A stretch of DNA of 64,000 nt from Bacteroidota bacterium (GTDB lineage Bacteria > Bacteroidota > Rhodothermia > Rhodothermales > UBA10348): NCBI GenBank assembly GCA_029262855.1, contig JAJCYP010000114.1:1-64000 (forward strand), given 5' to 3'. Positions within the stretch are counted from its first letter, which is position 1; every line of letters starts with the position of its first letter. Below the pieces are notes generated by a model. It saw only the letters and a list, made by a program, of their open reading frames with translations. It searched no databases and was not told the DNA's origin. Shown one piece after another: positions 57,064 to 63,999 of the stretch. The position numbers and the translations under genes were made by a program.

Positions 57064-58152
57064 TCACCGTCCTATTTCAACCGAGACACGCGTACCCTTT
57101 TCTGGCGAACTCTTTATCGTGAGGGCGCCCCCATGCATTGCCGCAATTTTCCGGGCAAGAGCAAGGCCCAGGCCCAGCCCTGACTGGCCATACTCCAACC
57201 GCTCGAATTGGACGAAGGCGTCGAGCGTGGCCGATTGCTGCGGACTCATCCCCTTCCCACGATCGGTAATGGACAGGCCAAACCTGGTCCGGGTAAAAGC
57301 CGTCCGGACTTCCACGTCGGAGTCCGGGGGAGAGAACTTGAAGGCGTTGTCTACGAGCTCATCCACGATCTTCAGTAGATATTCTGGAGCCATTCGTACG
57401 CTCCCTTCCCGAAGGCGCAAGACGAGATCTGAATCGCGACCATAGAACCGGGCATGCTCCCTCGTGCGCTCCTCGATCAGGGATTCGGTATCCGGTGTGG
57501 CCTGTTTTCCCAGTCGCGCTCGTTGATCCTCGTCCTGTTCCACCGCTTGAAGTTGGGCAAAGAGGAGGTAGTTCTCAATACTCTTGAGCACTCGCTGGGC
57601 CGATATCCCGATCTGGAGGCCCATGTCCCGAATCTCGTCCTTGGTTAGATGGGCGAATCGAGTCCGGAGCATCTCGGCATAGCCGCCAATTGTCCTCAAG
57701 GGCAGGAGCAACTCGCTGGGAAACAACCTGGTTACGCTTGTGACCGCTACGAGGGGATCGGACCCAATTCTGGTTTCAAGTTGCTCACGTTTTCTTAGCT
57801 GAGCAGAAACCGAATCCAGCAGCTCAGTCGCGTTGAATGGTTTCGCCAGATAATCGTCCGCGCCCATGGACATCCCCTGACGCTGGCCCCCTTTCGTTGA
57901 CCATCCGGTGATCATAATGAAGGGGATATGTGCGGTGGTGGGCTCACTCCTGAGTGTGGACAGCACCTGATAGCCGTCGGCTCCCTCCATCAAGATATCG
58001 CTGATGACCAGGTCTGGTCGATAGGCCCTGGCCCGCTCAATGCCGACGAGGCCGTTCTCGGCGACCACTACCTCGTAGCCGTCCGTAGACAGGGCCTCGT
58101 TCATCATGTCCCGATAGACGGGATCGTCTTCAATGATCAAGACTTGGGCCAT
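57064..58152 (-). CDS. Response-regulator receiver plus HATPase_c protein with degenerate H-box
   Basis: Receiver LIIEDDPVYRDMMN...LVISDILMEGADG...AKPF; pseudo H-box FPSELLLPLRTIGGYAEML; HATPase DELVDNAFKFS...DRGKGM...SGLGLGLALARKI. Confidence 0.88.
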   Translation of the reverse strand: MAQVLIIEDDPVYRDMMNEALSTDGYEVVVAENGLVGIERARAYRPDLVISDILMEGADGYQVLSTLRSEPTTAHIPFIMITGWSTKGGQRQGMSMGADDYLAKPFNATELLDSVSAQLRKREQLETRIGSDPLVAVTSVTRLFPSELLLPLRTIGGYAEMLRTRFAHLTKDEIRDMGLQIGISAQRVLKSIENYLLFAQLQAVEQDEDQRARLGKQATPDTESLIEERTREHARFYGRDSDLVLRLREGSVRMAPEYLLKIVDELVDNAFKFSPPDSDVEVRTAFTRTRFGLSITDRGKGMSPQQSATLDAFVQFERLEYGQSGLGLGLALARKIAAMHGGALTIKSSPEKGTRVSVEIGR

Positions 58153-58165
58153 GATGTAGTGGGCT

Positions 58166-60463
58166 CTAAGCGCGAATAAATGCTATCTGGCCATCGAGAA
58201 CCGCCAATCGCCAAGTGGGGTGCGCCCCGAGATCTCCGGAAAGGACCAGGGTGCTGAGAGGCACCTGAACTCTCCGCTCCAGAGTCCTACGGAGTTCTCG
58301 CGCCCCGTACTCCGGATTGTAGCCTTCGGAGGCCAACATGGTCAGGGCCTCATCAGAGGTCGACAGTTCCACACCATGGCGCTTCCACAGCACCTCTCTA
58401 AGTTCGGCCAAATGACCCTTCAAAATTTGTTCAATGCTTTCCCGGGAAAGATGATTGAAGCTGATGATTTCATCGATGCGGTTGATCAGCTCGGGTCTGA
58501 ACCAGGTTTTCAGTGCGGTATTGATTGCGGTCCTGTCGTTGGGATCCGCGTCGGGGCGGACGTTGGTTGTCAGGACAAATATGCAATTTCGCGCGTCAGC
58601 CAGCCGCCCCTTGGAGTCGGTGAGTCGACCCTCGTCAAAAACTTGGAGGAAGACATCGTAGATACGTGGATGTGCTTTCTCGACCTCATCCAGGAGCACG
58701 ATTGAATAGGGTTTTCGCCGAATCTGGCCTGTCAGTTGGCCCTCCTGATCACTGCCGACATACCCCGGTGGAGACCCAATCAACTTGGAAATGGAGTGTT
58801 CTTCCTTGAACTCGGACATGTCGAGCCGGATCAGGTTCTTGTCCGAACCAAAGAGAAAGAGCCCCATCTGCTTGGCTAATTCAGTTTTTCCAACTCCACT
58901 GGGCCCAAGGAACAACAGCGTTGACATGGGTCCCCTGCGGTCCATCACCGAAGCATGCGCGAGAATCATTCGCTGAGACACGGCAGATACCGCGTGCTCC
59001 TGGCCTTTGATGGACTGAAGCAGGAACTCCTCCAGTTCGAGGATGCGACGTGCTCCCTGTGCCTCCAGGTGGCCCGCCACGATCTCGGCGGGCATCCCCA
59101 TTTTCTCAGCCAGGACCTCGGCTATGTCCTTGGGCGAGACCCATGACCCTGATTCTGGACCGTCGGTCGGCTGTCCGCCGAAACGGACGGGATACATGCT
59201 CAGTTCAGAGACCTTGGCCCGGGCCCCCGCACGATCCAGCAAATCGATGGCCTTGTCGGGAAGGCGATGGTCGACATCGATCCGCATGGAGAGGTCTACG
59301 GCGGCCTCGACCGCCTCGTCTTCGAACAGGGTGCCGTGGTGCTTGGCCAGCGACGACCTCAACCCGAGGAGCATCTCCACAGCTTCTTCTCGAGACGGCT
59401 CATCGACGATTATCTTTTCGAAGCGTCGCTCCATCGCCGGGTCCTTCTCAATGTAACGACGGTACTCGTCGAGCGTGGTGGCCCCGATCAACTTGATGGC
59501 CCCCCGGGACATGGCAGGTTTCAGGAGTTGCGCGGCATCTTGGGCACCCCCACCGGCCCCCATGATGGTGTGGATTTCGTCTATGAAAAGGATGAGGTTC
59601 TCATCTTGGGATGCTTCCTCAATCAGTGAAGTGAGCCGTTCCTCAAACTGTCCCCTCAGTGTCGTGCCCGAAAGAAGGGAGCCCATATCAACCTCTACGA
59701 TACGCTTTCCGCCCAGAACCTGTGGATCCTTGCCCTGGACGGCCCGCAAGGCAAGGGCTTCCACAATCGCCGTCTTCCCGACACCCGCATCCCCCACCAG
59801 AACGGGGTTGTTCTTCTTTTTTCGCGAGAGGGCCTGCAGGGTTTGAAGGATCTCTGTCCTTCGCCCGATGATGGGAGGGATGCGCCCCTCGCGCGCGGCC
59901 TGGGTCAGATCCTTTCCAAATGACTCCAGCGCGCTGGTTTCCTCGGCGTCCTGGGGCGCACTGAGGGATTGCTGGGGCGAATCGACGGATTCCTGAGCCG
60001 GTCGGGGGGCGGATTGCTCCGGAAATACGAGGCATCCACGGATCGTGTCGGCCTTGGAACCGCCCCGGCCAAGTGCTTTCCGGAGTGTTCGGTTGGGATG
60101 TTCGAGGGAAGCCGCAAAGAGATGGGTGGCGGACGCCGGGAGACCTCGACTCAGCCCAATGGCACGCTCGAAGAGTTCCCTGGTCTCTGTGCTCCGGTGA
60201 ATTGTCTGTCCTACTATCGCTGTACGACCAGACGGAAGCATGCTTCTGATGGCCGCCCTGAGCTTGGCCAACTCGACCTGGGCCCTGGACAGGCTCTCCC
60301 TGAGTTGCGACCACTCGGGAGTAGTCTCGGCACCGCCTCGCTCAACCAAAGACAGGATAGCGTGGACGATGTGAATCGGCTCGATTTCCGGACACCCTGT
60401 TCCGGCGGCGTCGCGGGCGGCCTGGTTCCAGGCCTCTCGGGCGGAAGTAGTCAGTTCAGACAT
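58166..60463 (-). CDS. ClpA/B-like Hsp100 AAA+ ATPase (two AAA modules)
   Basis: Clp N-like domain; Walker A GDAGVGKT and GPSGVGKT; Walker B LILFIDEIHT and IVLLDEVEKAHP; GYVG D2 pore loop; D2-small RELRRTLERRVQVPLS. Confidence 0.92.
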   Translation of the reverse strand: MSELTTSAREAWNQAARDAAGTGCPEIEPIHIVHAILSLVERGGAETTPEWSQLRESLSRAQVELAKLRAAIRSMLPSGRTAIVGQTIHRSTETRELFERAIGLSRGLPASATHLFAASLEHPNRTLRKALGRGGSKADTIRGCLVFPEQSAPRPAQESVDSPQQSLSAPQDAEETSALESFGKDLTQAAREGRIPPIIGRRTEILQTLQALSRKKKNNPVLVGDAGVGKTAIVEALALRAVQGKDPQVLGGKRIVEVDMGSLLSGTTLRGQFEERLTSLIEEASQDENLILFIDEIHTIMGAGGGAQDAAQLLKPAMSRGAIKLIGATTLDEYRRYIEKDPAMERRFEKIIVDEPSREEAVEMLLGLRSSLAKHHGTLFEDEAVEAAVDLSMRIDVDHRLPDKAIDLLDRAGARAKVSELSMYPVRFGGQPTDGPESGSWVSPKDIAEVLAEKMGMPAEIVAGHLEAQGARRILELEEFLLQSIKGQEHAVSAVSQRMILAHASVMDRRGPMSTLLFLGPSGVGKTELAKQMGLFLFGSDKNLIRLDMSEFKEEHSISKLIGSPPGYVGSDQEGQLTGQIRRKPYSIVLLDEVEKAHPRIYDVFLQVFDEGRLTDSKGRLADARNCIFVLTTNVRPDADPNDRTAINTALKTWFRPELINRIDEIISFNHLSRESIEQILKGHLAELREVLWKRHGVELSTSDEALTMLASEGYNPEYGARELRRTLERRVQVPLSTLVLSGDLGAHPTWRLAVLDGQIAFIRA

Positions 60464-60467
60464 GGTC

Positions 60468-62840
60468 TCAGGTCAGCATACTCGGTACATACCGAGCAAG
60501 GTGGAGGCTGGGTGGCCTTAGGAACCTTTCCAGGGCCGTTTCTGCCGAAGCAGATTGGCTTCGCCGAAGGTTGACGACCGGCTCAACGGCCGTCTGCCGG
60601 TCCGGAACGAGTATAATGTCCGGCACATCTCCATCTCTACCGGAGTTCCAATACGCAGCATGACTGCGTTCGTACTCCCATGCCCAGGCAAACGCGCTCA
60701 GAGCGTCGGCAGTCCGACCGCTGGCATCATGGCAGACCCCCAGGTTGTGCCACGCCTTGGTCATATAGGGCTCATGCTCGAGTACGGCCTCGAACTGCGC
60801 GATGGCTTCCGCAATTCGGCCGGACATAGCCAGCGCGACGCCTCGGTTGTAGAGTATATCCCCGGCCGACTTCCCGGACACATGGGGTTTCAGAACCTCA
60901 GCTGCGGCATCAAACTGACGGACGGCTATCTGGGAGCAGGCCAGGTTTGTGGCGGCGATTCGATCTTCCGAATCTTGTTCCAGAAGGCTACTCGAGACCG
61001 AGATCGCCTCGTGGTACTTGGCATCAAAATGCAGGAGCACAGCCTGAAGTCTCATCAGATCCGGTCGGTCACTGGTGGAGCCCACCTCTCTCAATTCCGC
61101 CACCGCCAGTCCAAATCGGTTCAGGTGGAAATAGACCAGTGCAAGACCAACCCGGGCCTCAGCCCTGACGGCTTCGGTCTCTCCTGCCCGAAGAAACGCT
61201 CGCTGCGACTCCGCCAATCGGAGGAGATAGAGGCAGGCAAACCCTTGTCCAAGCCACCCGGCTGGCGACAGGCTCTTTTGCTTCTCCAGGGTCAGGTAGT
61301 CAGTCCGGGCCAGCTCGTAGCTTCCCAGATGGACCCGGCACCCGGCCCTGCCCTGAAGCGCAAAGGGAAGTGACGGGCTCCGAGCCAGCGCTGCGTCAAA
61401 GGAAGCCAGCGCGTCGTCAAATTCGCCAATAGACGCCAGGATGTGGCCACGGTTTGCGTGCGAGTTGGCTCGAGTAGGATCCAGTCCCAGTGATCGCTGG
61501 TAACTCTTGATAGCGCCTCGGATGTCACCCGCCTGGAACTGGAGGTTTCCCTTGTTGGACCAGGCTCCAGCCTGGGAGGGGTCGAGCCGTAGCGCACTCT
61601 CGAATTCGGCGAGCGCATCGTGATGGCGGCCGAGTGCCTGTAGACACGTGGCCCGGTTTGTGCGGGCCTTGGCGTTGTCGGGCTCGAGTACCAGAACACG
61701 GTCGCATGCCCTGAGCGCCTCCTCATGGCGGCCGAGCCGGGCCAGGCACACTCCGACTCCATTCCAGGCCGACGCCAGGGTGTCATTCTCGCTCAGCGCG
61801 TTTTCGAACTCCGAAAGAGCATCCTCGAGTCGCTCCAATCGCTGGAGACTGATCGCGCGATTAACCCTTTCTCGAGGGGTTGGCGGGGGAGTCGCTGGAC
61901 TGACGACCGGTCTCCCGCCGACCTGTTGCATCAACCTGGTCAGGTCCTGCCTAAGGTCGCCAAACCCGGGATAACGATGTTCAGGATTGGTTTCCAGACA
62001 GCGCGCCAGCACGGAATTCAAAGGATGGTCGATGTGCGGCATCTGAAACGAGCGATGTGCCTCCTCCATGTCCTTCCAGAAGGTAAGGCGGGCCTCCAGT
62101 GTATTTGCCTGAGGAAACGGAGCGATCACCGGCGGACTACCGGTCACCATCTGATACAGCATGACCCCGGTTGCATAAATGTCGGTTCGCTCGTCACAGG
62201 CGGCGGCGTCCTCGAACTGTTCGGGTGGCATATATATGGGCGTGCCGAATCCGATTCCGCGCATGGTCTGCCCCTTGAAGTCGGGCTCTGCACTGGAATC
62301 GATGGTGCCCACTTGACCAGGCTCTTCGTAGCGACCAGGCTGGCTTGCCAACCCGAAGTCGGTAATCTTGACGTGTCCATCCGGGTCAATCATGACATTG
62401 GCCGGCTTGAGATCTCGGTGACTTCGGACTCCTCGGGAGGCCGCGAACTCCATTCCGTGACTCAGTTCGATCCCCCATCGCAGGATCTGCTCAAGCCCCG
62501 GAGGCTGTACACTCAGGTAACCGGCCAGATCGTTCAAACCACTGGCCCCAGGTCGGACGCACTCCATTCCGATGAAGAGGCGACCCTCCACCTCATCCAC
62601 AAAGTACGCCTGGACAAGAAACGGGTGAGCACCGAGCGCGACCCAGACGTCGGCTTCCTGCCTGAAGCGAGCCATCGCTCTCCGGTCCGAAAAATCCCTC
62701 AGCGAGGTCTTCAGGGCGTATTCGCGCTCGTCGTGGTGGGCCTTGACCAGATAGACTACACCAAATCCTCCCTGGCCCAAGACTTTCAATACGGTGTAAC
62801 GACCGCCGATGACTTCGCCGGGCCCGGCGTTCGCATTCAT
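60468..62840 (-). CDS. Ser/Thr protein kinase with C-terminal TPR array
   Basis: ORF called from 62939; preferred start MNANAGPGEVIGGRYTVLKVLGQGGFGVVYLV; catalytic SHRDLKPANVMIDPDGHVKITDFGLA; many TPR units (AWNGVGVCLARLGRHEEALRACDRVLVLEPDN). Confidence 0.93.
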   Translation of the reverse strand: MNANAGPGEVIGGRYTVLKVLGQGGFGVVYLVKAHHDEREYALKTSLRDFSDRRAMARFRQEADVWVALGAHPFLVQAYFVDEVEGRLFIGMECVRPGASGLNDLAGYLSVQPPGLEQILRWGIELSHGMEFAASRGVRSHRDLKPANVMIDPDGHVKITDFGLASQPGRYEEPGQVGTIDSSAEPDFKGQTMRGIGFGTPIYMPPEQFEDAAACDERTDIYATGVMLYQMVTGSPPVIAPFPQANTLEARLTFWKDMEEAHRSFQMPHIDHPLNSVLARCLETNPEHRYPGFGDLRQDLTRLMQQVGGRPVVSPATPPPTPRERVNRAISLQRLERLEDALSEFENALSENDTLASAWNGVGVCLARLGRHEEALRACDRVLVLEPDNAKARTNRATCLQALGRHHDALAEFESALRLDPSQAGAWSNKGNLQFQAGDIRGAIKSYQRSLGLDPTRANSHANRGHILASIGEFDDALASFDAALARSPSLPFALQGRAGCRVHLGSYELARTDYLTLEKQKSLSPAGWLGQGFACLYLLRLAESQRAFLRAGETEAVRAEARVGLALVYFHLNRFGLAVAELREVGSTSDRPDLMRLQAVLLHFDAKYHEAISVSSSLLEQDSEDRIAATNLACSQIAVRQFDAAAEVLKPHVSGKSAGDILYNRGVALAMSGRIAEAIAQFEAVLEHEPYMTKAWHNLGVCHDASGRTADALSAFAWAWEYERSHAAYWNSGRDGDVPDIILVPDRQTAVEPVVNLRRSQSASAETALERFLRPPSLHLARYVPSMLT

Positions 62841-62844
62841 GGGA

Positions 62845-63999
62845 CTACCAGTCTTCTCCACCAAGGAGATCCCGGAAGTCATTGTCAGAAACCACGGAGG
62901 CATCCGGAGAGGCGCCAGGGCTGCCTTGCGGGTGCTCATTTTCCAGGTTATGGGGGCCCAATTGATCCCGAATGGCCTGAAGAAGCTCGTCCATGGCGTA
63001 CGGCTTGGTCAAGATCTGAATGTCCCCCAGGCCAGTACCCTCCATGGTATGGCGATGCTCGGGAAGCCCTGAAACCGCAATCACTGGAATCTCTGGATGG
63101 ACCTTTCGAATTTCTGCCACCATGGATGGACCGTCCATGACTGGCATGTTGATGTCCGTCACGATCAGGTCTACGGCGGCGGGGTCACCCAAAAAAATGT
63201 CGAGTCCTTTGCGGCCATCCTCCGCGCCAAGGGTATGATAGCCAGACGCCTCGAGCATGTCGATGTTCATCTCCAGCATGAGTGGCTCATCATCTACGAC
63301 GAGGATCGTCTGCGCGCGACCAGGCTGTGATTCAACGGCTGGAACTGACTTCGGAGCCAATTCCGCATCCCCTGCATCCTCAGGCTCCGCTGGCAGATAG
63401 ACTGAGAACGTCGCTCCCAGGCCGAGTTCACTCTGAGCTACCATGAACCCTCCGTGGCTACGGACGATGGTCATTGACGTAGACAGCCCCAGGCCGGTAC
63501 CCTGCCGGCGCGTCTTTGTCGTAAAGAACGGCTCAAATATGCGGTGTATGACGTCGGGATCAATGCCGTGACCCGTGTCGGTCACAGAGATGTGCACGAA
63601 CTCACCCTCGGTGGCATGTGGAGAGTGTTCGGTCGCCTCAGCTTGGGAGAGCCGCCTACAGACCGCAGAGATCGTCAGCGTGCCACCTTCCGGCATGGCG
63701 TCTCTGGCATTGATCATGATATTGAGAATCATCTGCCTGAGTAGGGCGGCATCTCCTCGAATAGGCAGCAAATCCTGCGGGATATTTGAGTAGATTTCGA
63801 TTGCCTTGGTAAAGGTACGCCGAGCAAAGGCCACCACGTCCTTCAGCAGATAGCGAAGCTGCAGAGAGATGAACTCGCCTTCTACGCCGCGGGAAAAATC
63901 CAGCACCTGCTTTACAATTTCCGCACCTCTTCGGGCACTGTGCTCGATAGCGTCCAGCTTGCTTTCTACCCAGGGATCTTCTACGCGTCTCTTGATCAT
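62845..63999 (-). CDS. Hybrid sensor histidine kinase with C-terminal receiver, truncated by window edge
   Basis: HATPase NIMINARDAMPEGG, DTGHGIDPDVIHRIFEPFFTTK, GTGLGLS; receiver LVVDDEPLMLEM...VTDINMPVMDG; open to the right edge. Confidence 0.9.
   Translation of the reverse strand: MIKRRVEDPWVESKLDAIEHSARRGAEIVKQVLDFSRGVEGEFISLQLRYLLKDVVAFARRTFTKAIEIYSNIPQDLLPIRGDAALLRQMILNIMINARDAMPEGGTLTISAVCRRLSQAEATEHSPHATEGEFVHISVTDTGHGIDPDVIHRIFEPFFTTKTRRQGTGLGLSTSMTIVRSHGGFMVAQSELGLGATFSVYLPAEPEDAGDAELAPKSVPAVESQPGRAQTILVVDDEPLMLEMNIDMLEASGYHTLGAEDGRKGLDIFLGDPAAVDLIVTDINMPVMDGPSMVAEIRKVHPEIPVIAVSGLPEHRHTMEGTGLGDIQILTKPYAMDELLQAIRDQLGPHNLENEHPQGSPGASPDASVVSDNDFRDLLGGEDW

Follow-up and report, generated by a model that had tools for sequence, protein, structure and literature searches.

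A probable lineage-conserved pseudo-histidine kinase with its own receiver domain, encoded beside a Clp unfoldase and a Ser/Thr kinase in Rhodothermales

The stretch of DNA analysed here (64,000 nt, hereafter the window) encodes on its minus strand, at 57064..58152, a protein of 362 residues in which a receiver domain is fused to a histidine kinase core (pseudo-Rec-HK). The phosphoacceptor His is replaced, the histidine kinase fold is kept and the replacement is conserved in the lineage, which marks the protein as a probable pseudo-histidine kinase, DivL-like in mechanism. Both chemistries of the DHp domain are predicted to be lost, neither the acceptor His nor the phosphatase-motif Thr at H+4 being present; the receiver, the DHp hairpin and the ATP site of the CA domain are retained. 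The protein is probably a lineage-conserved pseudokinase that arose from a receiver-controlled histidine kinase, i.e., an LvrB-like hybrid response regulator, and that signals by binding partners under the control of its receiver.

The gene was delimited by its open reading frame, its Pfam domains and orthologues at 56, 50, and 48% identity. The coordinates given in an earlier note on this DNA proved exact, stop codon included, though the minus strand had been left unstated. The protein comprises, in this order, a receiver (residues 4-115, 57808..58143; Pfam PF00072, 91 bits), a degenerate HisKA/DHp region (residues 133-205, 57538..57756) and a HATPase_c or CA domain (residues 257-360, 57073..57384; 73 bits), all on the minus strand; Pfam detects no PAS domain. 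The two outer domains are as intact as the note had read them: the receiver carries D9/D10, D52, T82, and K104, and the N, G1, and G2 boxes of the CA domain preserve N269, D297, G299, G301, G325, G327, and G329, consistent with a predicted nucleotide site. The HisKA match (PF00512, residues 148-203) stays below threshold at 19.9 bits versus a cut-off of 26.9, which alone is weak evidence, as the apparently normal partner kinase of one orthologue (G004) reaches just 24.1 bits.

The acceptor position is occupied by Ser146 (57715..57717), and the AGC codon reported earlier is correct; minus-strand positions 57735-57691, with ttt ccc AGC gag ttg around the site, translate as VTRLFPSELLLPL. A single sequencing error is an unlikely origin of this residue, since at least two base changes separate a His codon (CAC or CAT) from AGC. 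Three further genera of the family contribute syntenic orthologues (G010, G018, and G004, respectively 56, 50, and 48% identical to the window protein) with the H-boxes LPAEISKPL, LPAELSEPL, and LAAEIHDPV, and a protein 38% identical from another family of the same order (G044) has LPATIRQPL. The acceptor residue in the five His-less members is therefore Ser, Ala, Ala, Ala, and Ala: the loss of His is conserved across the orthologues and G044, but the change to Ser described in the earlier note is not, being found in the window protein alone. His is present, in contrast, in all 30 aligned wider Rec-DHp-CA homologues and in 39 of 40 further ones (69/70). Since the three closest homologues and the 38% identical relative lack a residue that 69 of 70 wider homologues possess, the loss is beyond chance. 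As judged from this comparison, it is a lineage-conserved property and not an isolated mutation, which the earlier note would have recognised by His in close homologues; all three carry Ala. A separate single loss occurs in one wider Rec-HK (L182, G247:C1:15499-16563), which reads IPTDLRTPV, with Thr at the acceptor position and the H+4 Thr retained. Other histidines of the window protein were considered as acceptors and rejected: H168 is not conserved in the other operon members, and H340 sits in the CA domain.

The Thr at H+4 is the phosphatase residue of HisKA kinases (E/DxxT/N motif). The window protein has Leu150 at this position (57703..57705), and the Thr is absent from all five His-less members versus present in 30/30 His-bearing relatives; the H+3 Arg is likewise found in one of the five, compared with 22 of 30. 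With its HisKA match below the curated cut-off and this Thr gone, as in 5/5 members, the window protein is predicted to fall outside the active HisKA sensor kinases. A tree inferred with the H-box columns excluded unites the four operon members in one clade (support 100/99), which G044 joins at 55/61 support only; a single origin of the His loss, G044 included, is possible and is favoured, though weakly supported. Clear members in the genomes searched number only four, or five with G044.

An alignment of 35 sequences contains 19 invariant columns, including D52, K104, and P105 of the receiver and E265, N269, G299, G325, G327, and G329 of the CA domain, and all 35 place the acceptor position 42 residues from the receiver Lys. 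Among the operon members, of which there are four, mean identity is 69% in the receiver, 51% in the CA domain, 40% in DHp helix 1 and 21% in the linker. ATP binding may vary among members, because two orthologues have another residue (T or M) in place of the N-box Lys. An AlphaFold model (mean pLDDT 87, pTM 0.61) comprises the receiver, a long helix region, a full two-helix DHp hairpin (helices 133-164 and 171-205) and the CA domain, so that the window protein shows the LvrB-type layout, in which a receiver at the N-terminus leads through a helix into DHp-CA. Confidence is low in the linker (pLDDT about 53-62 near residues 121-140), and receiver-to-core coupling is not assured, as the linker is both weakly conserved and uncertain in the model; scoring its helix propensity gave no distinction between proteins with and without the acceptor His. 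Foldseek against the PDB returned full-length LvrB as the best match (E 1e-23), followed by DivL (E 2e-16). Globally, the model superposes badly on LvrB (TM about 0.35, rmsd about 23 A), which a different arrangement of the domains would lead one to expect.

The gene lies in an operon whose order is hybrid kinase, Ser/Thr protein kinase with TPR repeats (STPK), Clp, and pseudo-Rec-HK, with gaps of 4, 4, and 13 nt, and the same four genes stand in the same order in the window and in G010, G018, and G004 (4/4 loci), with the hybrid kinase on the same strand. The hybrid histidine kinase is represented in the window by its C-terminal part (HisKA-HATPase-Rec, 62845..63999, minus strand); the H-box, GGIAHDINN, is encoded immediately past the window's edge, and the end of the contig at 64337 then cuts the gene off. 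Its HisKA domain scores above the cut-off (34.8 bits) with His present, the G004 orthologue has a recognisable PAS fold, and the best NCBIfam model is CckA, far below its cut-off. The G010 hybrid kinase (L055:2-1732) has the H-box GVAHQINN and may also be altered, because Gln replaces the acidic residue after its His. The STPK (60468..62840, minus strand), whose presence in the operon the earlier note had reported, has intact HRD and DFG motifs and probably begins at an ATG at 62840, separated by 4 nt from the stop codon of the hybrid kinase. Between it and the pseudo-Rec-HK, a ClpA/B-like double-AAA+ unfoldase (58166..60463, minus strand) carries both Walker A/B pairs, without an M-domain or an IGF/IGL-type ClpP loop. 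Its alignment with ClpA is uninterrupted, and that with ClpB passes over the M-domain, giving a ClpA layout with a ClpB-like loop region; the missing loop makes a ClpP-independent unfoldase more likely. A conserved tail forms the C-terminus of the hybrid kinase (62845-62900; also L055, L056, L057, and L176; consensus about [ST]DxxFxxLxGGxDW). It is present in each of the five loci that contain STPK and Clp, is absent from the kinases of the two-gene loci (G044, G108, and G110), and is a candidate docking peptide or Ser/Thr phosphosite.

The fifth of these loci (G009; L176, G009:C24) has hybrid kinase, STPK, and Clp genes, and since no pseudo-Rec-HK adjoins Clp there, the three can do without it in that genome. 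Conversely, G044, G108, and G110 have a hybrid kinase and a Rec-HK with no STPK or Clp gene in between, and a same-strand kinase lies directly upstream of the Rec-HK in 13 of the 29 His-bearing relatives scanned. Likely, a kinase/Rec-HK pair gained the STPK and Clp genes in a lineage whose Rec-HK lost its catalytic residues. This ancestral pair, the Clp unfoldase, the loss of the H+4 Thr and the identity of LvrB and DivL as the closest proteins go beyond the earlier note. A literature search for this operon type found none.

The distribution of the protein is patchy. The window's genome belongs to the same Rhodothermales family as G010, in which a full-length orthologue occurs in 4 of 27 genomes; the two other genomes of the window's genus have none, and G026 has a 3' fragment alone, at a contig end. 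A scan of genome contigs yielded an orthologue (L085) in a Rhodothermales MAG, most other matches being to the receiver only. Of 114 genomes from the order, only five, each belonging to this family, have the Clp type, and a phylum sample of 396 revealed none outside the family.

Under the preferred reading of a receiver-switched pseudokinase, the operon hybrid kinase would phosphorylate D52 of the receiver, which is feasible for a His-less protein because LvrB H161A, an engineered His-to-Ala version, is still phosphorylated by LvrA, as is LvrB itself (PMC5863495). The signal would then run through the fixed-length helix into a dimeric DHp-CA core, which would respond with a new conformation and an altered ATP state. 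When the LvrB receiver is phosphorylated, a coiled coil forms and the CA domains are released (PMC13269768); the same movement could expose a binding surface on the pseudokinase. The output would be protein binding in place of phosphotransfer, its target most plausibly being the Clp unfoldase, the STPK or the hybrid kinase.

Two narrower readings assign the protein a specific partner, and each is tentative. An RssB-like adaptor, in which D52 phosphorylation governs the docking of the dead enzyme domain to a substrate or to the partner Clp unfoldase, would fit the adjacent Clp gene in 4/4 operon-clade loci and has a precedent in RssB, a receiver fused to an inactive PP2C-fold domain that acts as ClpXP adaptor (PMC7226468). 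We nevertheless consider it unlikely: it draws on gene neighbourhood only, RssB is not among the listed fold matches, G009 carries Clp without the pseudokinase, and a Clp lacking the ClpP-type loop does not imply degradation. It is similarly doubtful that the pseudokinase heterodimerises with, or binds, the hybrid kinase to tune its kinase/phosphatase balance in the manner of DivL or ChrS. CckA, the best model of the partner kinase, is the partner of DivL; DivL is the second best fold match; the kinase and Rec-HK are paired without STPK or Clp in G044, whose Rec-HK is also His-less; and inactive ChrS signals through heterodimers (PMC9491836). The partner is, however, of a general hybrid histidine kinase type for which the CckA match is weakly informative, and DivL has PAS domains and no receiver.

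The remaining readings fare worse against the same data. The earlier note had proposed Ser146 as a Ser/Thr phosphorylation site, and an STPK with intact HRD and DFG does share the operon with a protein bearing Ser at the site; Ala in the other four His-less proteins makes phosphorylation of Ser146 by that kinase extremely improbable. Its other suggestion, an anti-sigma-like (RsbW/SpoIIAB type) Ser kinase acting on another protein, finds intact HATPase motifs and a HATPase_c_2 match in its favour, but this match is below threshold (20.3 bits versus a cut-off of 27.4) and far exceeded by HATPase_c (73 bits), so that the domain is best read as the histidine kinase type. HATPase_c_2 also matches 27 of the 35 members, mostly His-bearing ones, and the conserved operon genes include no anti-anti-sigma gene; the suggestion is thus disfavoured as very unlikely. 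Decay towards a pseudogene, with the H-box lost by drift, would agree with the patchy presence of the full-length orthologue (4/27 family genomes) and the poor conservation of DHp helix 1 and the linker. It is nonetheless highly improbable, given that the open reading frame, the receiver and the ATP-site residues are retained in four lineages at about 50% identity and that the receiver keeps 69% mean identity within the four operon members.

To our knowledge, few pseudo-histidine kinases have been studied, DivL being the best worked example. The protein described here would represent another natural, lineage-conserved route to this state, in which a Rec-HK was the point of departure and the residues for kinase and phosphatase activity disappeared jointly, and its His-bearing sister proteins in similar gene contexts are ready controls. 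The system lets one ask whether a response regulator can use a histidine kinase core as an output domain without enzymatic function, and it bears on the way in which a Clp unfoldase might be coupled to both histidine and Ser/Thr signalling.

Among known systems, LvrB of Leptospira is the closest in architecture: it shares the Rec-helix-DHp-CA order, a length of about 360-380 aa, a cytosolic location and an adjacent hybrid kinase gene (lvrA), and is the best full-length fold match. His161 of LvrB is functional, and the protein phosphorylates LvrC, whereas the window protein and its orthologues have Ser or Ala at the acceptor position and no H+4 Thr. The lvrA-lvrB arrangement is matched by the hybrid kinase and Rec-HK pairs of relatives, while here the STPK and Clp genes sit between both kinase genes. 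Caulobacter DivL, a proven pseudo-histidine kinase that works by binding without kinase activity (PMC4211667), resembles the window protein in its histidine kinase fold and its replaced acceptor (Tyr; Ala in Magnetospirillum) and, as predicted for the window protein, signals without kinase activity and works with a hybrid kinase. DivL differs in carrying PAS domains at its N-terminus and in responding to a receiver on another protein by binding free DivK~P, where the window protein carries its own receiver and no PAS. RssB of E. coli likewise joins a receiver to an enzyme-fold domain without an active site and is tied to a Clp unfoldase; its fold is that of PP2C rather than a histidine kinase, and the Clp link of the window protein is genomic only. 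The ChrS pseudokinase of evolved C. glutamicum is also an inactive histidine kinase that signals via heterodimerisation, although it derives from a laboratory-selected frameshift in the CA domain and not from a natural lineage, and is a sensor kinase without a receiver. Anti-sigma kinases of the RsbW/SpoIIAB type, finally, are recognised by a stand-alone HATPase_c_2 domain above the cut-off, the corresponding sub-threshold match in the window protein being embedded after a receiver and DHp.
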